Source of the DNA: Sulfurimonas sp.
Lineage (GTDB): Bacteria; Campylobacterota; Campylobacteria; Campylobacterales; Sulfurimonadaceae
DNA length: 64,000 bases
Direction of reading: 5' to 3'
Assembly: GCF_028714975.1 (NCBI RefSeq)
Contig: NZ_JAQTLH010000001.1
Location: forward strand, 248,001 to 312,000
Every line of letters begins with the position of its first letter. Within the stretch, counting starts at the first letter, position 1. A model generated the notes under the pieces. The model was not told where the DNA came from, made no database searches, and saw nothing but the letters and a program-made list of their open reading frames with translations. Both the position numbers and the translations under genes were made by a program. Below, in pieces: positions 48,788 to 64,000 of this stretch.

Positions 48788-50116
48788 ATGAAATTCCCGA
48801 CAATCGGCAGTATAGCAACAACTTCAGTTGTTTCAATAGATATAAACAAGACGATTTCAGATGCTATAAAAATGATGTTTGAGAGCGTGCATAGAAATAT
48901 AATAGTAATAGATGAAAATGTTTTTCGTATTTTAACGGTAAACGACATTTTAAATATTAAAATTCAAAATATAGATTTGAATGATTCGCTTAAGAGCTTA
49001 AAACTTAATAGCGTTTCCGTAGCACATAAAGATAAAAATATTTTAGAGATAGTTGATTATCTAAATTGCGAAATAGAGTATATATGTGTAATTGATGGAG
49101 ACGGTTCGCTTCACGGGCTTGTTTCGCATACGGATGTTACAAGCAGTATAGACCCTGAGACACTGATGGATAATTTTTGTCTGCAGGACTTTTTAAAGCT
49201 TAGCAGAAGAGCCAAGTGGATAAATAAAGGTATGAAGACGCTTGATTTGCTTGAAGAGATGATAAAAAACCGTTACGAGAGCGTAATGATTGTAGAAAAC
49301 TTCAAGCCTATAGGAATCTTTACTACAAAGGATGTTGTAAAAATCATCAAACATAACGAAGATTTAGAGCTGCCTGTAAGTAACTATATGTCATCTCCAG
49401 TTGAGACGATAAGTAAAAACAGTTCTATAAAAGAGGCTTTGGCATTTTTGAAAGAGAAGCATTATAAAAGAGTAGTAGTTGTTGACGATAACGGAGATAT
49501 GTCTGGGATAATTACGCAAAAAGAGCTTATTTCCCTCTCATACTCAAGATGGGCAATGCTTATGAAAGAGCATCATGATGAGCTTTGTCAAATCAATGCT
49601 TCTCTTTTAAACAAGAGCAAAAAGTATGAAGCGATGGCTTCTATAGACCCTCTTACGAGTTTATATAACCGCAATAAATTTTTAGAACTATATCTCTCAT
49701 CATACAAAACTATGGCAGAGAGAGATAACAGTATGTCATTAATCATAATAGACATAGACCATTTTAAAAAGATAAACGATGCTTACGGGCATAATGTCGG
49801 GGATGAGGTTCTTGTAAAAATCTCTCATGAGCTGCAAAAAACCCTAAGAAACATAGATATAGTATGCAGATGGGGAGGAGAGGAGTTTGTTATACTCCTT
49901 CCTGCGACAGATATGGATAATGCACTTTTATTAGCCGAAAAATTAAGAGCTCATATAGAAGAGTTAAATATAGATAAAGCAGGCAAAATTACTGCAAGCT
50001 TCGGAGTCACAAAAGTAGTAAAAGACGATGAGCTAAAGAGTGTCATCGAGAGAGCCGATAGAGCTCTCTATGAAGCAAAAGCTTCGGGTAGAAACTGTGT
50101 TAAGGCGATTTTTTAA
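48788..50116 (+). CDS. CBS-domain diguanylate cyclase
   Basis: The 442-residue protein has two N-terminal CBS pairs (about 1-120 and 135-255; for example GIFTTKDVVKIIKHN and SGIITQKELISL), which bind adenine nucleotides in other proteins. A GGDEF domain (about 280-440) follows, with active-site GGEEF at 363-367 and an intact RxxD inhibitory site (RNID). It has no membrane segment. It likely links c-di-GMP synthesis to cellular energy or nucleotide state. It starts 11 bases after folP and overlaps the next gene's end by 4 bases, on opposite strands. Confidence 0.93.
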   Translation: MKFPTIGSIATTSVVSIDINKTISDAIKMMFESVHRNIIVIDENVFRILTVNDILNIKIQNIDLNDSLKSLKLNSVSVAHKDKNILEIVDYLNCEIEYICVIDGDGSLHGLVSHTDVTSSIDPETLMDNFCLQDFLKLSRRAKWINKGMKTLDLLEEMIKNRYESVMIVENFKPIGIFTTKDVVKIIKHNEDLELPVSNYMSSPVETISKNSSIKEALAFLKEKHYKRVVVVDDNGDMSGIITQKELISLSYSRWAMLMKEHHDELCQINASLLNKSKKYEAMASIDPLTSLYNRNKFLELYLSSYKTMAERDNSMSLIIIDIDHFKKINDAYGHNVGDEVLVKISHELQKTLRNIDIVCRWGGEEFVILLPATDMDNALLLAEKLRAHIEELNIDKAGKITASFGVTKVVKDDELKSVIERADRALYEAKASGRNCVKAIF

Positions 50117-52221
50117 TCCTCTCTTATGCAGACTCTGTTTCTTCCGCTGTTTTTTGCCTCATAAAGAGCATCATCCGCTCTTTTTACTATTGTTTCAGAT
50201 GTATCGTCATCAATAAAGCTGCTTACGCCGAAACTTGATGTTTTTCTCCCCACGGCTTCAAATCGGTACTGTTCTATTTTTGCTCTTAAAATTTCTGCAT
50301 GTTCGGCAGCTGCTTTTATATCCGTTTGCGGAAGTATAATCATAAACTCTTCTCCGCCCCAACGACCTACAATGTCTGTTACCCTTGAGTTCTCTTTTAA
50401 TATTTTTGCAACATCAATAAGTGTTTTATCGCCGATGTTGTGCCCGTAAGTGTCGTTTACGGATTTGAAATGATCTATATCCAACATAATGACGCTAAAG
50501 ATTTGTCTGTATCTTGAGGCTCTCTCTATCTCGCTATCAAAAATAGACTTAAGTTTTAGCCTATTGTATAGTTGCGTTAATTGATCCGTCACTGAAAGCT
50601 CTTCTGTAATCTTTTGAGCGGTTATATCGTATCTTAAGGAGGTATAGCCGATTTTCTCCCCTGAGGCGTTATATATCGGAGAAATTGTTGCGTGTGTCCA
50701 ATAAGACTTACCCTCTTTTGTAGTATTTCTTATCTCACCCCTCCAAGTTTCGTCTCTCCTTAAGGCTCCCCACATCTCTTTGTAGAGTTCGTTTGGTGTG
50801 TTAGGATGTCTCATTATATTGTGTTTTTTACCTATGAGTTCATCCTTCTCGTAGCCGGTAAAATTACAAAATGCACTACTGACTTCCGTAATAACTCCGT
50901 TTAAATCCGTTGAAGAGGAGATAATATATCTATCCACAATATCAAGATATCTTTTCATAGAAGCGTTTGTTTTGCTAAGCTCATTTTTTGCCTCTTCAAG
51001 CTCTCTTGTTCTCTCTCTTACTTTATCTTCAAGGCCGATAGCATGCTTTTTGATAATATTTTGCGAATTTTTAAGTTTTTTAGCCATTTTGTTGAAGTTG
51101 CGCGCCAATACTCCTATTTCGTTGTCCACATAAACATCTACTCTGTTTTTTTCTTGATTTTCCAAAGAGAACTCTTTTACTCTTTTTATAAGAGCATCTA
51201 TCGGAAAAACTATATGTTTTGTCGCCATAATGATTGCAATAGCAATAAAAACCAAAACAATGAGGATAACTGCAATTGAGATTAATTCTTCTTTATGTAT
51301 AGGTTTTAAAACTTCATCCAGATCTATTTTTACGATAACTCCCCAATTAAGCGCGGGAATATACCCCCACGCCGTGATAACTTCAACTCCTCTATAGTCA
51401 AGACCTTCACCGCTGCCGTATCCTCCTCTTGCAGCTTTTGCAGATGCCAACTCTTTGTTTTCGTTAAATTCAAATTCGTTTTCTACGGAGTTTTTTATAT
51501 ATTTTAAAGGCGTAGTTGATATTAATTTATTTTGAGAGTTTATGGTAGATGCAAAAAATTCACCGCTCTCACCTAAGCCTTTTTGATCATCAAATATTTT
51601 AGAGAGCCTGCCTTTTGCAAGTTGAATTGCAATAACACCGATAATTTTATCTTCATTATAGATCGGATGTGCAACAAAAGCCGCATGGGCTTCAGAAGGC
51701 AGATAATACTCAAAACTGCTTATCTTAGTGTTTAAAAACATTTTTGCATCTTTATATACGGAAGCCAAGTTTGTATCTTTATAGATACCTGTTATAAGAT
51801 TTGTACCCAAATCTGACTCTTTTTTGAACGAGTAGATTATATTTCCGTCCATATCTATAAAAAAGATGTCATAAAATTTATCTTTATCTGTAAAGTTGTT
51901 TAGTATTTTGTTAAGTTTTTCGTCATCGCTAATTAGATGATTGTTTTGCTCAAAATTATCTTTATGTTTTAAAAAACCGTTAACCATACATGGAAAAGAG
52001 GCTATAAGCTTTGAACTTTTTTCGATATCTTCTATCTGATATTCTAATTTTGATATTTTTTCATTTAAGGTAAGCTCAAGACGCTCTTTTGCTTGGGATT
52101 TAAACTGATTTTTGTAAAAGAAATAGTTTATACTAAAGAGAGTAATAATTGGAATAACGGAAACTACGATAAACCAAAATAGAATTTCATCTCTTATATG
52201 CAAATTGAACCGTCTACTCAT
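50113..52221 (-). CDS. dCache-HAMP-PAS diguanylate cyclase
   Basis: This inner-membrane receptor of 702 residues has a membrane segment at about 12-30, a periplasmic dCache domain (about 35-310; FFIDMDGNIIYSFKKESDLG, GVIVKIDLDEVLKPI), a second membrane segment (about 311-334), HAMP (about 335-390) and a coiled coil. A PAS domain (about 430-535; YISSSTDLNGVITEVSSAFCNFTGY) leads into GGDEF with GGEEF at 622-626 and RxxD site RVTD. Its start overlaps the stop of the binding-protein gene by ATGA, suggesting a shared signalling unit. Confidence 0.94.
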   Translation of the reverse strand: MSRRFNLHIRDEILFWFIVVSVIPIITLFSINYFFYKNQFKSQAKERLELTLNEKISKLEYQIEDIEKSSKLIASFPCMVNGFLKHKDNFEQNNHLISDDEKLNKILNNFTDKDKFYDIFFIDMDGNIIYSFKKESDLGTNLITGIYKDTNLASVYKDAKMFLNTKISSFEYYLPSEAHAAFVAHPIYNEDKIIGVIAIQLAKGRLSKIFDDQKGLGESGEFFASTINSQNKLISTTPLKYIKNSVENEFEFNENKELASAKAARGGYGSGEGLDYRGVEVITAWGYIPALNWGVIVKIDLDEVLKPIHKEELISIAVILIVLVFIAIAIIMATKHIVFPIDALIKRVKEFSLENQEKNRVDVYVDNEIGVLARNFNKMAKKLKNSQNIIKKHAIGLEDKVRERTRELEEAKNELSKTNASMKRYLDIVDRYIISSSTDLNGVITEVSSAFCNFTGYEKDELIGKKHNIMRHPNTPNELYKEMWGALRRDETWRGEIRNTTKEGKSYWTHATISPIYNASGEKIGYTSLRYDITAQKITEELSVTDQLTQLYNRLKLKSIFDSEIERASRYRQIFSVIMLDIDHFKSVNDTYGHNIGDKTLIDVAKILKENSRVTDIVGRWGGEEFMIILPQTDIKAAAEHAEILRAKIEQYRFEAVGRKTSSFGVSSFIDDDTSETIVKRADDALYEAKNSGRNRVCIRED

Positions 52222-53435
52222 TTTGTATCACCTTTGCCTTCCCAAGAGTTACCAAAAGATTTATAAATCTCGTTTATACCGTTTTCCCAAAAATCAATCT
52301 CTTTAAACGGCGGATAGGGTTGAGGGTTTATTATATACTTAGATTGCCATACGATATCAAACTGATTTTGGTTATTTATTTTGCCTATAAATACTTTTCT
52401 GTGAACATGTTGGTTTATGGGGTCTACATAAAAGATGTTATCAGATATATTAACACTTGTTCTTTTTATATTTTTAAGTATCTCGGCGGAAGTTATTTCT
52501 TTTGATTTCAGTACCGCTTGTTTAAAAAGCTCTATGCCGAGATACATTGAAAACATAGCATCTGTTGTAAACTTATTTTGACCGTCGTTAATACCTTTAA
52601 AATAGCCCCATGTTGCATAGTGTCCAAGAGTTGCGCTGTTTTGCACATGTTTGGAAATCTCTAAAAGCGATGCTTCATCCACGCTTAGTGATATCACAGG
52701 AACTATATCTGATGTTATGTTAAACTCTTGAAGTTTTTTAAAAAATTCTATGTTTGAATCGCCGTTTAGGGTATTTATAATTGCATCGGGTTTTTTAGAT
52801 TTTATATCTTCAAAGAGATCTTTAAAATCGCTTGAGCCTAATGTAAAATATTTCTCTCCCACTACATGTAAATCGGTTAGTTTTGACAACTCGTTTATGT
52901 AAAAATTTGTAGCTTTTGGGTAGATGTAGTCTGAACCGACAAGATAGATATTGTTGCCGAAATTTGATTTGATAAAGTCTATAGTCGGGTTGACCTGCTG
53001 ATTTGCGCTAAGACCTAAATAGACTATGTTTGGCGAACTCTCAAACCCTTCATACTGAACGGGGTAAAATAGTATGCTGTTTGCTGATTCGACTATCTCT
53101 TTAACCTCTTTTCTTGAAGCGGAAGTCCAACATCCAAAGATAGCTACAACGCCTTTGTCGATAAGCTCTTTGGCACCTTTTTTAAACTCTTTTGAATCAG
53201 ATTTTCCGTCAAACTCGATGATTTCTAGCTCTCTATTTAGCAGACCGCCGCTTCTGTTTATCTCTCTTGCGGCAGCTCTTAGTATATCTCCTAGAGGTTT
53301 TTCGTTTGTGCTCATGGTTCCGGTTGCCGAGTAAAGAAGACCTATTTTTATACTCTCTTTTTTTATTCCTACAAAGGCAACTAACAAAGCAGCTATAAAA
53401 GTCGCAATGCTAAAGATAGCGATAAAAGTTCTCAT
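52218..53435 (-). CDS. Periplasmic binding protein of the urea/amide type, coupled to a diguanylate cyclase
   Basis: The product has an N-terminal signal or anchor (FIAIFSIATFIAALLVAFVG) and a type I periplasmic-binding fold like UrtA/AmiC: IKIGLLYSATGTMSTNEKPL, AIFGCWTSASRKEVKEIV, ILFYPVQYEGFESSPNIVYLG and ATWGYFKGI. No permease or ATPase gene is near. The neighbour overlapping its stop is a diguanylate cyclase with a periplasmic domain, so it may be a ligand-presenting sensor part. ATG 53435 (MRTFIAIF) with GGGAG upstream is preferred to TTG 53447. The ligand is unknown. Confidence 0.85.
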   Translation of the reverse strand: MRTFIAIFSIATFIAALLVAFVGIKKESIKIGLLYSATGTMSTNEKPLGDILRAAAREINRSGGLLNRELEIIEFDGKSDSKEFKKGAKELIDKGVVAIFGCWTSASRKEVKEIVESANSILFYPVQYEGFESSPNIVYLGLSANQQVNPTIDFIKSNFGNNIYLVGSDYIYPKATNFYINELSKLTDLHVVGEKYFTLGSSDFKDLFEDIKSKKPDAIINTLNGDSNIEFFKKLQEFNITSDIVPVISLSVDEASLLEISKHVQNSATLGHYATWGYFKGINDGQNKFTTDAMFSMYLGIELFKQAVLKSKEITSAEILKNIKRTSVNISDNIFYVDPINQHVHRKVFIGKINNQNQFDIVWQSKYIINPQPYPPFKEIDFWENGINEIYKSFGNSWEGKGDTK

Positions 53436-53502
53436 AGCTTCTCCCAAGTCAAAATGGTCGAAAATAAACTCTTATGTTTTTATATATAGTACCTCAATAT
53501 CT

Positions 53503-59527: not shown

Positions 59528-59731
59528 ATGCATACTTTGAAATTGAAAGTGCAAGACAGTGTATTTGATAAAATTATGTATTTTTTACAAAATCTTCCAA
59601 AAAGTGAAGTAGAAATTGTTGAAGATAAAGTGACATTAAAAAATCAGCCGGATTTTATTGAGTATCTTTCCTCAAATCCTGTTGCCGTAAATAGTGACTT
59701 CCTTAGTAGAACAGAAGCTAATGCCAGATAA
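59528..59731 (+). CDS. Putative type II antitoxin of a PIN-domain pair
   Basis: The 67-residue protein (MHTLKLKVQDSVFDKIMYFL...) precedes and overlaps a PIN-domain toxin by 11 bases, the typical antitoxin-first arrangement. The N-terminal strand-helix pattern (LKLKVQDSVFDKIMYFLQ) resembles a small DNA-binding antitoxin fold; the family is not identified. The C-terminal half would wrap the toxin. Confidence 0.65.
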   Translation: MHTLKLKVQDSVFDKIMYFLQNLPKSEVEIVEDKVTLKNQPDFIEYLSSNPVAVNSDFLSRTEANAR

Positions 59732-60125
59732 AGTTTTTTTAGATACAAATATTTTATTATATGCATTTAGCACAAAAGATATAAATAAGCACAATATAGC
59801 AAAAAATATTGTTTTGTCTCAGGCAGTAATTAGTACTCAGGTCATTAATGAGGTAGCTGTAAATCTCATTAAAAAATTTGATTTTTCTGAAGATAACATA
59901 CAAAAATTTCTAAGTAGCAGTTATTCAAGATACTATGTTGTCGGGTTAGATTATGATGTTTTTTCTGCTGCTTCTGATTTAAGAAAAAAATATATGTTCT
60001 CATATTATGATAGTCTAATTGTTTCAGCCGCACTTGCGTCACATTGCACCATCCTCTACAGTGAAGATATGCACCACGACTTACTCATCGAAAATAAACT
60101 AAGAATCATAAATCCCTTTAAATAG
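59721..60125 (+). CDS. PIN-domain ribonuclease, VapC-like toxin
   Basis: PIN toxins cleave tRNA or other RNA in a metal-dependent manner. The active-site acidic residues are visible in VFLDTNILLYAF (near 6), INEVAVNL and SYYDSLIVSAAL, with a late SEDMHH. ATG 59721 (MPDKVFLDTN) is preferred to TTG 59694. The 134-residue length fits. The 3' end overlaps the convergent GGDEF-EAL gene by 8 bases. Confidence 0.85.
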   Translation: MPDKVFLDTNILLYAFSTKDINKHNIAKNIVLSQAVISTQVINEVAVNLIKKFDFSEDNIQKFLSSSYSRYYVVGLDYDVFSAASDLRKKYMFSYYDSLIVSAALASHCTILYSEDMHHDLLIENKLRIINPFK

Positions 60126-62034
60126 CTTTTACGGAGTCAAAAAGCTCTTCTTTCTCAATCAAAGTAGCTTTTGGCGGGGAGATATAGTAGCCTTGCATAA
60201 AGTCGACATTTAACTCAACCAGCTTATCAAAAACATTTTTCGAGTGAACAAACTCGGCGACTGTTTGCATATTGCTCTGCGAAGCAAAGTGGATGATGCT
60301 CTTTGCAACTTTGTAATCTTTAATGTTTTTATCGATATTTTTGATTAGTGAGCCGTCTATTTTAAGGTAGTTTGCCTCTATGTCGATAATGGTTTTAAAG
60401 TTTGAGTAGCCGCTTCCAAAGTCGTCTATGGAGACTTTTGCTCCCAAAGAGTGAAGCAGATTTGTTTTGGTTTTAAAGAGTTCTACATCATCTATCTCAT
60501 CACTCTCAAGTATCTCAAAAGTAACGCTGGATGCCAACTCCGGATTGCTTTTGAGATGTTTGATAATCGTCTCTTCAATGTCTGCATTGATAAGGTCTGA
60601 AAAATTTATATTTACGCTTATATTTTTTTTACTCTCTTTTAGTTTATCAAAAACAATTTGTAAAATTCTCTGAGTAAGTTTATAGTGCATATTTGTCCCT
60701 TTTATTTGAGGCAAAAACTCAAAAGGGGTAACGACTCTCCCATCGGCTGCTATTATCCTAACCAGTGCTTCATACTTGTAAATCTCACATTTTTTGTAAT
60801 CATATATCGGCTGATAGTAGCATGTAACTCTATCTTCATCAAGTGCTTCTTTTACAAAACTTATGTCTTTTGAGCTGTCATTTTTTTCAGAGATTGATTT
60901 TTCATCATAAATCTCTATCCTGTTTCTTCCGTTTTTCTTTGCATTATAGAGCATTTTATCCGCTATTTTAATAGCTTCGTGCAGATTTTTTTCTAATGCC
61001 GGATGTTTATGCAGACCGATGGAGACACTTAAGCCGATTTCATTGCCCTCATAAAAATAATCTCTTGAAGAGATACTCTCCTTAATCCTTTCGCACACTT
61101 GCAGTGCAGAGCCGCTTCTGTTATGGATAAGCAGTAAAAACTCCTCTCCGCCGTATCTGACAAGTATGTCGCTGGCTCTGATGGAAGCTTTAAATATTTT
61201 ACTGGCTTGAACAAGCACAAAGTCACCTGCTTGATGCCCGTAAATATCGTTTATGGATTTAAACTTATCAAGATCTAACATAGCAATACTGTAATTATTT
61301 AGATTTATGACATTTTGCAGCTCTTCGAGGTAGTTTCTGTTAAATGTATTTGTAAGCGGATCCGTAAATACTCTTTTTCTTGTAGCAAAATAGTGAAAAA
61401 GCTGCATAGCTATCATAGCCATAAAGAGAACTACGACAATTATTAAAATAATAAAAAAGTTCTCTAAAGGCTTAATCGATTGCAGAATTATATCTTGGAT
61501 TTTTGTCGTGATATCGACGCTAAAAAGAGCGGCTACTTCATTGTTGATTATTATGGGATGAAGAAGAGTTATATAGAGATTTTCTATATCCTTTTGTTTT
61601 AAAATCACGGGTTTTTTAGTACTATATACATCAAAATACTCATTTTGAGTAACATCAAATTTTTGGTAAAAACTTGCTTTGTCTGTTTTTGAAGCATCTA
61701 AGATAAATCTAAATTTGTTTTTCTCGTCTTTATATAGTATATAGGCATATTTTATATTTGCCGTCATAATCAAAGAGATAATATCTTCATATTTTTTTGC
61801 GTTCTCTTCTTCCATAAAAGCATTTAGCAGTTCATCGGAATTTCTGATATTTAGAGATGTCGTAAAATCTCTCTGCACTGCATTTAGTATGGTTGAGATC
61901 TGCTCTATCTGATCTGTTTCAATGCGATTGTAAACATCCTCTTTTGTTGTTTTGATATTGCTGTATATGTAGACGAAAAATAGACCTAAAACCAGAAGAA
62001 GAAAAAAGATAAAAAAATCTTTGCTCTTTACCAT
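60118..62034 (-). CDS. Membrane GGDEF-EAL cyclic di-GMP protein
   Basis: Two membrane segments (about 7-27 and 188-212) bracket a periplasmic sensor domain. GGDEF follows with GGEEF at 295-299 and RxxD site RASD five residues before, then EAL (about 410-635): YEALVRI, EILESDE, DDFGSGYSNF, LKIDGSL and AEFVHS, so both activities are possible. It is the third gene of an operon with a TonB-dependent receptor and a small secreted protein, and overlaps the latter by 7 bases. Confidence 0.95.
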   Translation of the reverse strand: MVKSKDFFIFFLLLVLGLFFVYIYSNIKTTKEDVYNRIETDQIEQISTILNAVQRDFTTSLNIRNSDELLNAFMEEENAKKYEDIISLIMTANIKYAYILYKDEKNKFRFILDASKTDKASFYQKFDVTQNEYFDVYSTKKPVILKQKDIENLYITLLHPIIINNEVAALFSVDITTKIQDIILQSIKPLENFFIILIIVVVLFMAMIAMQLFHYFATRKRVFTDPLTNTFNRNYLEELQNVINLNNYSIAMLDLDKFKSINDIYGHQAGDFVLVQASKIFKASIRASDILVRYGGEEFLLLIHNRSGSALQVCERIKESISSRDYFYEGNEIGLSVSIGLHKHPALEKNLHEAIKIADKMLYNAKKNGRNRIEIYDEKSISEKNDSSKDISFVKEALDEDRVTCYYQPIYDYKKCEIYKYEALVRIIAADGRVVTPFEFLPQIKGTNMHYKLTQRILQIVFDKLKESKKNISVNINFSDLINADIEETIIKHLKSNPELASSVTFEILESDEIDDVELFKTKTNLLHSLGAKVSIDDFGSGYSNFKTIIDIEANYLKIDGSLIKNIDKNIKDYKVAKSIIHFASQSNMQTVAEFVHSKNVFDKLVELNVDFMQGYYISPPKATLIEKEELFDSVKAI

Positions 62035-62456
62035 ATCTTATCCTCAACATAATCATCCAGTTTATCCGAGACTATTATTGATTGTGCTTTTGCTCTAGGC
62101 GCAATTATAACGATATTGGGTCTGCCTTTTTTCCAAAAAATAGCACCGAAGCTTTGCGGAACCTCTTTTAAAAGAGCATAGTCAAGTACGAAAATCGCTT
62201 TTTCATGGCAAGTTTTGTCTAGGTTTTTTTTATTTTCCAAGATAAGGAGTGTGGCATCTTTGCAATAAGCCGTTGTTGCATAAGAGCCTTTTTTATCAAA
62301 CTCTTCAATCAGCTCTTTATCATCGGACCAGATAACCAGCCCTTTTTTCATAGAGATATTTGCAAATATTTTTTCTAATATCTCAGCTTTTATAGCATGC
62401 GTATTATCCGCAAAAGCTAAAGCGATTAAAAAAAATACCCCGATTACAGTTCTCAT
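62028..62456 (-). CDS. Small secreted protein, YfiR-like (DUF4154)
   Basis: A signal peptide (MRTVIGVFFLIALAFA) precedes about 125 residues. By eye the layout matches YfiR/DUF4154: KAEILEKIFANI at the start, and FGAIFWKKGRPNIVIIAPRA...IIVSDKLDDYVED at the end (compare GG.I.....RFDVN..AA..AGL..SS.LL.LA). YfiR is a periplasmic repressor of the diguanylate cyclase YfiN, and here the next gene encodes a GGDEF-EAL protein with a periplasmic domain. Similarity is weak and unscored. Confidence 0.6.
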   Translation of the reverse strand: MRTVIGVFFLIALAFADNTHAIKAEILEKIFANISMKKGLVIWSDDKELIEEFDKKGSYATTAYCKDATLLILENKKNLDKTCHEKAIFVLDYALLKEVPQSFGAIFWKKGRPNIVIIAPRAKAQSIIVSDKLDDYVEDKIW

Positions 62457-64000
62457 CTAAAAAGTGTACTCCAGCGTAAAAATAGCTCTTCTCTCTATCG
62501 CTGAGGTAAAGATACCGTTTATATTTGACTGGCTTGCTTTGTCAAATATATTTTCGCCCTTTATCTTTAAGTCTAAATTTTTGTCGTAATGGTATATGGC
62601 ACCTGCCGTGTAGTCATATCCCGCATCTATTTTATAGCCCATCACATCTATGTATGAAGATCTATATACAAGCTCATTATAGAAGTCAAATCTACCGACT
62701 TTGTTAAATAGCTGCACTAACGCACCGTTGTCCGAACTAAGATGAGCTTTGTCTTTATCGGCAATAAAATATTCCACAAAAAGTTTATTGTCTTCATCAA
62801 ATTTATATTTTGTGTTTACAAAGAGTTGCCTAAAATCGGCAGTGTCGGGATTATTTATATATCTGCTGTTAGCCCTGTCGAATGCGATACCGTTTTTGCT
62901 TTTAGCTTCACCCACTCCCAGAGTAAGAGTTAGCGCATCTTTTTTGTACTCACCCTCAATTTTTAATAGATTACCGGTAGTAGCTTCTAGGTTTGGATTT
63001 GGATAGTAAAACGGGGAGAAAGTCGTCTGTGCAAATATCGGGTAGGTATAATTTTTTTGAGCAAAAAATTTAATTGAAAAATCCTCTCTAAGTTGCCCGT
63101 TGTAAGCAAAACGAATCAATTTTTGTGTAGCTGATTCGCTCATGTAGTTTTTGTAGTAGTCAACTTTTGTGCCGAGTGTTATAGAGTGATACTTATTGAA
63201 TTTATATTCATCTTCTATGTAGAGCATATAGATATCAAGATCTCTTGGTCCGACTATTACGGTTTTATCTACGCCGTTGCTCTTAAATTCGTCAAGGAAA
63301 AACTCTTTAAATCTAGCCTCTGTACCTACTAAAATATAGTTATCCCCATAAACGAATCTTTTTTCCAAAGTAGCACTGTTTGTTCGTGAGCCGTTTTTAA
63401 TAAGTAAATCATAAGCTTTCGTTCTGTCTTGCAGAGTCATGCCCATGCTGTCCGAGTTGCTTACTCTTACCTCTTCATAATCGCTTCCAAAAACAAATTT
63501 TATATTATTGTCAAAATATTTTGTAAAGCTTATATACATATTTTTTGTGTCAAGATAACCGCCTCTGACCGCCGGACCAAAACCGGCAAAAATATCACTT
63601 TTTTCTCCTCCGGCGCCAAGCTCTACTAAAAAGTCATCCTCTTTTTGCAGACTGACATAAGATTGAACTCTTTTGCCGTCTCTTGAGAATTTGGCGCCGT
63701 TTGTACCTGTATGTTTATCATAGTTACTTATCCCGACATCAATATTTGCCAGATATGAGTATCCGTCAAGCTTTTTTGCCTCTATAAGCTGAGCTCTGCC
63801 GCCGCCGCTTTCTGAGTTTATAGAAGTTTGCAAGACCGTTGCATCTTCTCTTGAGGGATCTTTTGTATACATTCTTATGGTCATATTGCCGGGTTCACCG
63901 CCAAAGGAGATAGAGTTTGAAGCTTGGTATATCTCGATATGGTCTATAAAATTTAGTCCTATTTTTCCGTACTGAGTCATCGCAGTTCCGGCAGTTAAGG
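62457..64000 (-). CDS. TonB-dependent outer-membrane receptor (5' end beyond window)
   Basis: The visible 514 residues begin within the plug domain (TAGTAMTQYGKIGLNFIDHIEIYQASNSISFGG) and continue through a beta-barrel ending in the C-terminal aromatic strand AIFTLEYTF, as required for outer-membrane insertion. The open frame runs off the window edge, so the TonB box and signal peptide are not visible. The track start (ATG 63980) is internal. It abuts the small secreted protein gene with no spacer, so the three genes are co-transcribed. The substrate is unknown. Confidence 0.9.
   Translation of the reverse strand, partial: LTAGTAMTQYGKIGLNFIDHIEIYQASNSISFGGEPGNMTIRMYTKDPSREDATVLQTSINSESGGGRAQLIEAKKLDGYSYLANIDVGISNYDKHTGTNGAKFSRDGKRVQSYVSLQKEDDFLVELGAGGEKSDIFAGFGPAVRGGYLDTKNMYISFTKYFDNNIKFVFGSDYEEVRVSNSDSMGMTLQDRTKAYDLLIKNGSRTNSATLEKRFVYGDNYILVGTEARFKEFFLDEFKSNGVDKTVIVGPRDLDIYMLYIEDEYKFNKYHSITLGTKVDYYKNYMSESATQKLIRFAYNGQLREDFSIKFFAQKNYTYPIFAQTTFSPFYYPNPNLEATTGNLLKIEGEYKKDALTLTLGVGEAKSKNGIAFDRANSRYINNPDTADFRQLFVNTKYKFDEDNKLFVEYFIADKDKAHLSSDNGALVQLFNKVGRFDFYNELVYRSSYIDVMGYKIDAGYDYTAGAIYHYDKNLDLKIKGENIFDKASQSNINGIFTSAIERRAIFTLEYTF

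Follow-up and report, generated by a model that had tools for sequence, protein, structure and literature searches.

In Pseudomonas aeruginosa, the periplasmic protein YfiR keeps the membrane enzyme YfiN off, and YfiB in the outer membrane sequesters YfiR (PMC3375315, PMC4887326). Variation of the output domain behind YfiR-YfiN has already been described, and a 2012 survey found that distant YfiR-type relatives are mostly without YfiB (PMC3375315). Here, we describe a three-gene locus in a 64,000-nucleotide (nt) stretch of DNA from Sulfurimonas sp. (contig NZ_JAQTLH010000001.1, positions 248,001 to 312,000; referred to here as the window), in a 2.06-Mb genome. The locus codes for a receptor of the TonB-dependent type, a small and putatively periplasmic adaptor with a predicted YfiR-type fold, and a membrane protein with GGDEF and EAL domains that is the output of the trio and acts on cyclic diguanylate (c-di-GMP).

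These three genes probably form one YfiBNR-like relay across the cell envelope, with a TonB-type receptor standing in for YfiB and controlling a YfiR-like adaptor. An earlier note on the window, made without database searches, had read the locus in the order receptor, YfiR-like protein, and c-di-GMP enzyme, and our analysis supports that reading, with the relay itself drawn from the gene architecture and from analogy. The computed results that carry it are the gene unit, the YfiR-type fold, the Cache-type sensor, the intact catalytic motifs, the matching numbers of the parts, and the variety of outputs that follow the shared sensor. A TonB-type receptor fills the outer-membrane slot at locus after locus. 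If the reading is true, bacteria can respond to a surface compound with a change in c-di-GMP or in the state of a phosphorelay, by way of a small soluble adaptor.

RESULTS

Organization and conservation of the locus

All three genes are on the minus strand and, as had been noted, they abut or overlap. The receptor gene occupies positions 62457 to 64000 and runs past the end of the window to about position 64322, such that the window holds its C-terminal 513 codons and residues 1 to about 107 fall outside; the complete receptor is 621 amino acids long (L001:5458-7323), with a GTG start near window position 64322. Its TAG stop codon directly abuts the ATG of the small gene (positions 62028 to 62456, 142 amino acids), leaving a gap of 0 nt. 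The small gene and the enzyme gene (positions 60118 to 62034, 638 amino acids) overlap by 7 nt, and the string ATGGTAA carries the ATG of the enzyme. The gene preceding the receptor gene is 54 nt away, and the transcription unit could therefore start further upstream.

The small protein is present in 29 of the 60 relatives searched, often at just 25 to 30% identity, and a search with a 35-member profile of the family (A1) is positive for 54 of 298 Campylobacterota genomes and for 18 of 58 genera. Chromosomes outside the Campylobacterota were covered by a single pattern-based scan, which detects close relatives only, and plasmids carry none of the relatives of this protein. Neighbors at the fetched loci were classed with purpose-built profiles. 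Automatic calls place a receptor directly upstream on the same strand for 70 of the 72 distinct small proteins and a classed enzyme directly downstream for 71. Receptor, small protein, and enzyme are side by side at 70 of the 72 loci, a count made up of 69 automatic cases and L065, at which an opposite-strand open reading frame (ORF) was miscalled and the downstream frame holds a GGEEF enzyme; it also includes L053, whose enzyme is cut by a contig end. The neighborhood survey that the earlier note had suggested thus finds the trio kept almost throughout.

Most of the junctions overlap, with typical distances of -4, -13, -28, or 0 nt between receptor and small gene and of -4, -1, -7, or -8 nt between small gene and enzyme gene; apparent overlaps of about 110 nt at L039 and L185 are probably artifacts of choosing the first start codon. 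The genes upstream of the trio belong to 40 families in 63 loci (a rough count from BLAST clustering of mechanical ORFs), and the trio is therefore conserved as such and not through conservation of the whole region. This arrangement is far beyond chance, and the trio is a real unit. We note that at L211 (G039:C1), one of three trios in that genome, the order is enzyme, receptor, and small protein. An apparent fusion at L063 (350 amino acids) was discarded, as it reflects weak similarity to another protein.

Receptor and sensor were also searched for separately in 30 genomes, chosen such that roughly half carry the small protein. The counts of small protein, receptor, and sensor are 1/1/1 in 12 genomes, 3/3/3 in two, and none in most of the others (the G055 receptor was counted as two pieces). 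Only two genomes deviate, and both have, instead of the small protein, a protein of the type of DUF4154 (PF13689), the Pfam family of YfiR/HmsC-like proteins. In G016, the neighbors of a distant relative of the receptor are a kinase and a protein that our local DUF4154 profile recognizes (5.9e-19) and Pfam does not; in G330 (L132), the same sensor domain is part of a kinase whose neighbors are a true DUF4154 protein and a TonB receptor. The plan is thus the same in both genomes, with another YfiR-type adaptor.

The small protein

The AlphaFold2 model of the small protein has a predicted local distance difference test (pLDDT) score of 90.4 and a predicted template modeling score (pTM) of 0.81. 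Its best Foldseek match among 350,542 PDB chains is YfiR (4zhu_B; E value, 4.6e-4; template modeling [TM] score, 0.60). Most of the top 20 matches are YfiR chains (TM scores, 0.53 to 0.60), and the next are small substrate-binding proteins of Rhodothermus (0.40 to 0.51). By this model, the small protein has a YfiR-type fold. Profile-profile comparison points the same way: hhalign aligns A1 with 16 Campylobacterota DUF4154 proteins (A2) over the C-terminal 77 columns (E value, 3.8e-6; probability, 87%), and the A2 proteins match YfiR in the PDB at 2.3e-9. A search of the PDB with the small-family profile returned chance matches only. The small protein, with 142 amino acids compared to 156 to 194 in the local DUF4154 proteins, probably shares ancestry with YfiR, yet falls outside the Pfam family, and by analogy it would work like YfiR. 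Neither it nor its relatives have a convincing match to any Pfam family, and they constitute a family with a strong signature that Pfam does not recognize. A hydrophobic N-terminal helix is present in every row of A1, and export to the periplasm is putative.

The signature is a hairpin, G-[AG]-F-[FY]-W-x-K-[GS]-R-P-[NQT]-I, at residues 102 to 118 (positions 62103 to 62153). Across 72 sequences, R112 is conserved in 99%, W108, K110, and G104 in 97%, and P113 in 93%. The hhalign and hmmsearch alignments, taken together, put it, as GAFFWxKGRPNI, on the YfiR hairpin at about residues 151 to 164, a putative placing made at low identity. That region of YfiR includes positions proposed to bind YfiN, and Glu163 has been shown to touch YfiB (PMC3375315, PMC4887326). 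Cys65 (positions 62262 to 62264) and Cys83 (positions 62208 to 62210) are jointly present or jointly absent in 69 of the 72 sequences (Fisher P value of 3e-15, uncorrected for kinship), which suggests that they are disulfide partners.

The receptor

From its sequence, the outer-membrane component is best described as a diverged TonB-type receptor, in line with the earlier note. The N-terminal part that lies beyond the window consists of a signal peptide, a short conserved segment, and the plug. In an alignment of 39 receptors (A4), the segment before the plug reads LDxLLxxY...TK...G, with L24, L25, T38, G44, and M57 nearly invariant. The receptor has no match to an STN domain up to an E value of 1. 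The host genome codes for two ExbD proteins. At L058 (G055:C1, about positions 478137 to 480226), the receptor gene is broken in two by what appears by eye to be an IS21-type-like transposase pair, and the small protein and the enzyme are intact.

The membrane enzyme and its exchangeable outputs

The enzyme is a membrane c-di-GMP protein with a periplasmic sensor, as had been proposed. Hydropathy places transmembrane segments at residues 5 to 27 (positions 61954 to 62022) and 187 to 216 (positions 61387 to 61476), all boundaries being approximate, with the sensor between them at about residues 28 to 186 (positions 61477 to 61953). The sensor, defined with an alignment of 51 sequences (A3), is predicted to be a single Cache/PDC-like domain; the Foldseek matches of its AlphaFold2 model (pLDDT, 89.8) are sensors of the Cache/PDC type, among them WalK, Tlp3, and a formate sensor, at moderate TM scores. 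No Pfam match to HAMP or to CHASE8, the sensor family of YfiN, was found in the 638 amino acids. The GGDEF domain (positions 60919 to 61368; Pfam, 121 bits) and the EAL domain (positions 60172 to 60852; 187 bits) follow. Their motifs are intact, as the earlier note had observed: the I-site and active site read RASD-x5-GGEEF, and the EAL domain has all of the standard catalytic positions (E, N, E, D, D, K, E, and Q), which are near invariant across 47 relatives.

Outputs at the 72 loci are GGDEF-EAL proteins (47), GGDEF proteins (16), histidine kinases (7), one truncated gene, and one uncalled gene (L065, a GGDEF-EAL protein). The same periplasmic sensor precedes histidine kinases at other loci. 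The small protein is constant, and the sensor mostly so, while the output domain changes. At least eight changes of output label are required on a quick receptor tree, with the kinase arising once and the EAL label changing several times. Two of the seven histidine kinase outputs (L172 and L062), in trios that are complete in other respects, have no match to the shared sensor, and the small protein may thus tolerate a different sensor. The earlier note had allowed that the output could go either way, and this can be narrowed. Because the GGEEF motif is intact in all 60 relatives in which it can be read, whereas 16 of the 63 c-di-GMP outputs have no EAL domain, the c-di-GMP activity that the family shares is more likely that of a diguanylate cyclase; the I-site varies among relatives.

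DUF4154 proteins beside receptors

True DUF4154 genes are present in 21 of the 298 Campylobacterota genomes. At 20 loci, a same-strand receptor is adjacent in 17 (L145 is included by position, allowing for a wrong ORF call), a divergent receptor is present in one, and none is present in two; the three loci without a same-strand receptor are L146, L147, and L149. At most of the 20, a gene for a GGDEF protein, a GGDEF-EAL protein, or a kinase is adjacent or at a distance of one gene. In three further cases, a coiled coil and a membrane segment link DUF4154 to an output domain within one protein, namely to GGDEF (L113), to a SpoIIE-like phosphatase domain identified by eye (L128), and to a histidine kinase that is followed by the beginning of a receiver domain (L114), with receptor sequence nearby. 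A plasmid query with DUF4154 matched four records, and in all four, consecutive genes code for a receptor, a DUF4154 protein, and an enzyme with CHASE8; DUF4154 identity was scanned in two of them and follows from annotation or the query match in the other two. The outputs are kinases with a receiver in Sphingobium (two records) and Indioceanicola, and a GGDEF-EAL protein in Pseudoalteromonas, whose receptor is annotated as two pieces. Small as this sample is, it places the receptor-adaptor-enzyme arrangement in a second phylum, the Pseudomonadota.

Other genes in the window

The enzyme gene is tail to tail with a plus-strand PIN-domain gene (positions 59528 to 60125; VapC-like; E value, 8.7e-11), and the ends overlap by 8 nt. 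A 67-amino-acid ORF precedes and overlaps the PIN-domain gene and is a possible antitoxin; the PIN-domain gene is absent from the close relatives compared. Elsewhere in the window (positions 50113 to 53447, minus strand), a gene for a 702-amino-acid dCache-HAMP-PAS-GGDEF protein overlaps by 4 nt the gene for a 409-amino-acid periplasmic binding protein (Peripla_BP_5; E value, 6e-105), a second, independent case in which a periplasmic protein is paired with a diguanylate cyclase.

DISCUSSION

A proposed relay and its alternatives

In the relay that we propose, the receptor would bind an extracellular ligand, be pulled by TonB, or both, and its periplasmic face, formed by the conserved N-terminal segment and the plug, would then bind or free the small protein, by analogy with YfiB and YfiR. 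The FFWxKGRP hairpin of the small protein would bind the Cache-like sensor and keep the enzyme in a single state, which, by the example of YfiR and YfiN, is most likely the inactive one. Release would alter the dimer and activate the GGDEF domain; the EAL domain, which most but not all of the relatives have, would be a second activity. Control of the adaptor by the receptor is supported by operon position, by the matching numbers, and by the conserved segment before the plug; the physical contacts, the sign of control, the ligand, and a role of the outer membrane in controlling the small protein are inferred.

Several observations weigh against this relay. The Pfam scores of the receptor are just below the cut-offs (plug, 21.3 bits with a cut-off of 23.9; barrel, 25.8 bits with a cut-off of 27), with the domains in the correct order, and no clear TonB box was identified in it, so that its TonB dependence is putative. 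The search of the product of positions 62028 to 62456 with DUF4154, as the earlier note had suggested, gave no match, nor did Pfam DUF4154 match any of 35 relatives or any protein of the same genome. At a TM score of 0.60, the small protein is 8% identical to YfiR, in a fold that also occurs in some substrate-binding proteins, and the hhalign match is limited to 77 columns at 87% probability. The Cache sensor could bind a ligand of its own, and two loci (L044 and L066) have the small protein and the enzyme without an adjacent receptor. Of the claimed resemblance to YfiR, then, the predicted fold and a modest profile-profile match stand and Pfam membership does not. The earlier note would have given up its reading had DUF4154 similarity and conservation of the trio both been lacking; we find instead that the trio is strongly conserved, a YfiR fold is predicted, and the profile-profile comparison is positive, if modest.

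It is conceivable, though rather unlikely in our view, that the small protein is a miniature substrate-binding protein that passes a transported ligand from the receptor to the Cache sensor, as in NspS-MbaA and with no sequestration. The Rhodothermus substrate-binding proteins are at similar Foldseek E values, YfiR has a pocket for Trp and vitamin B6 that overlaps with the site for its partner, and Cache is a ligand-binding type of fold; YfiR chains nonetheless dominate the top 20 with the higher TM scores, the best-conserved residues (W, K, G, R, and P) form the tip of the hairpin and not a dispersed pocket, and related arrangements employ true YfiR proteins with a CHASE8 sensor of the YfiN type. 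The receptor might also be in the operon merely because it is needed under the same conditions, with the enzyme and the small protein sensing the state of the envelope. L044 and L066, together with the three DUF4154 loci without a same-strand receptor alongside, would fit such an arrangement, but none of the 30 genomes checked was found to have the receptor family separated from a YfiR-type gene, the part numbers match even at three copies per genome, and the genes overlap and are not simply near each other; we consider it quite improbable.

A different question, compatible with the relay, is whether the net output of the window enzyme is c-di-GMP hydrolysis by its EAL domain, with GGDEF acting as a GTP-sensing accessory. 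The near invariance of the EAL catalytic residues favors this, as does the closest PDB relative, the GGDEF-EAL protein PA0861 (5xgb), which we take to be RbdA, a phosphodiesterase activated through its own GGDEF domain. The GGDEF-only outputs, the repeated changes of the EAL label on the tree, and the uniformly intact GGEEF motif speak against it, although these findings bear on the shared activity and not on the net activity of this enzyme, and hydrolysis is possible but somewhat doubtful.

Comparison with known systems

The trio is most like YfiBNR (AwsXRO/TpbB) of P. aeruginosa and Escherichia coli and HmsCDE of Yersinia, which are likewise three-part envelope relays with a periplasmic protein of the YfiR fold and an inner-membrane enzyme that has a periplasmic sensor and a GGDEF domain. 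Unlike YfiBNR, its outer-membrane part is a TonB-type receptor and not the Pal-like lipoprotein YfiB, its small protein is shorter and outside PF13689, and its enzyme has a Cache/PDC-like sensor unmatched by CHASE8, no HAMP, and an added EAL domain. None of the three OmpA-domain genes of the host genome, which would be candidates for a YfiB-type partner, is on contig C1, the contig of the trio. The plasmid operons of Sphingobium, Indioceanicola, and Pseudoalteromonas share with the trio the order of receptor, adaptor, and enzyme, the close or overlapping genes, and the exchangeable outputs, but have a true DUF4154 protein and a CHASE8 sensor.

TonB-dependent transducers such as FecA-FecR-FecI and FpvA also signal inward across the periplasm from a TonB-type receptor. 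The trio differs from these in having no matched STN domain and no anti-sigma/sigma pair, and in having, in their place, a soluble adaptor together with a kinase or an enzyme of second-messenger metabolism. In NspS-MbaA of Vibrio cholerae, as proposed for the trio, a membrane GGDEF-EAL enzyme is under the control of a periplasmic protein; NspS, however, is a substrate-binding protein of full size, and that unit is without an outer-membrane receptor. We put at about even the chance of a wider proposition, that TonB-type receptors of several bacterial classes signal through YfiR-fold adaptors to c-di-GMP enzymes or kinases by a route separate from the STN/anti-sigma one, with the FFWxKGRP family as an unrecognized Campylobacterota branch.

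TonB is not mentioned in the main text of the 2012 survey (PMC3375315). We found nothing relevant in the literature that joins YfiR or DUF4154 with TonB receptors, the plasmid operons included, which is weak evidence as much subscription literature and many supplements were outside the search. That outputs are exchanged behind YfiR-YfiN and that YfiB is lacking from distant relatives was already known; new here are the recurrent presence of a TonB-type receptor in the place of YfiB, an adaptor family outside Pfam, and a Cache-type sensor instead of CHASE8.

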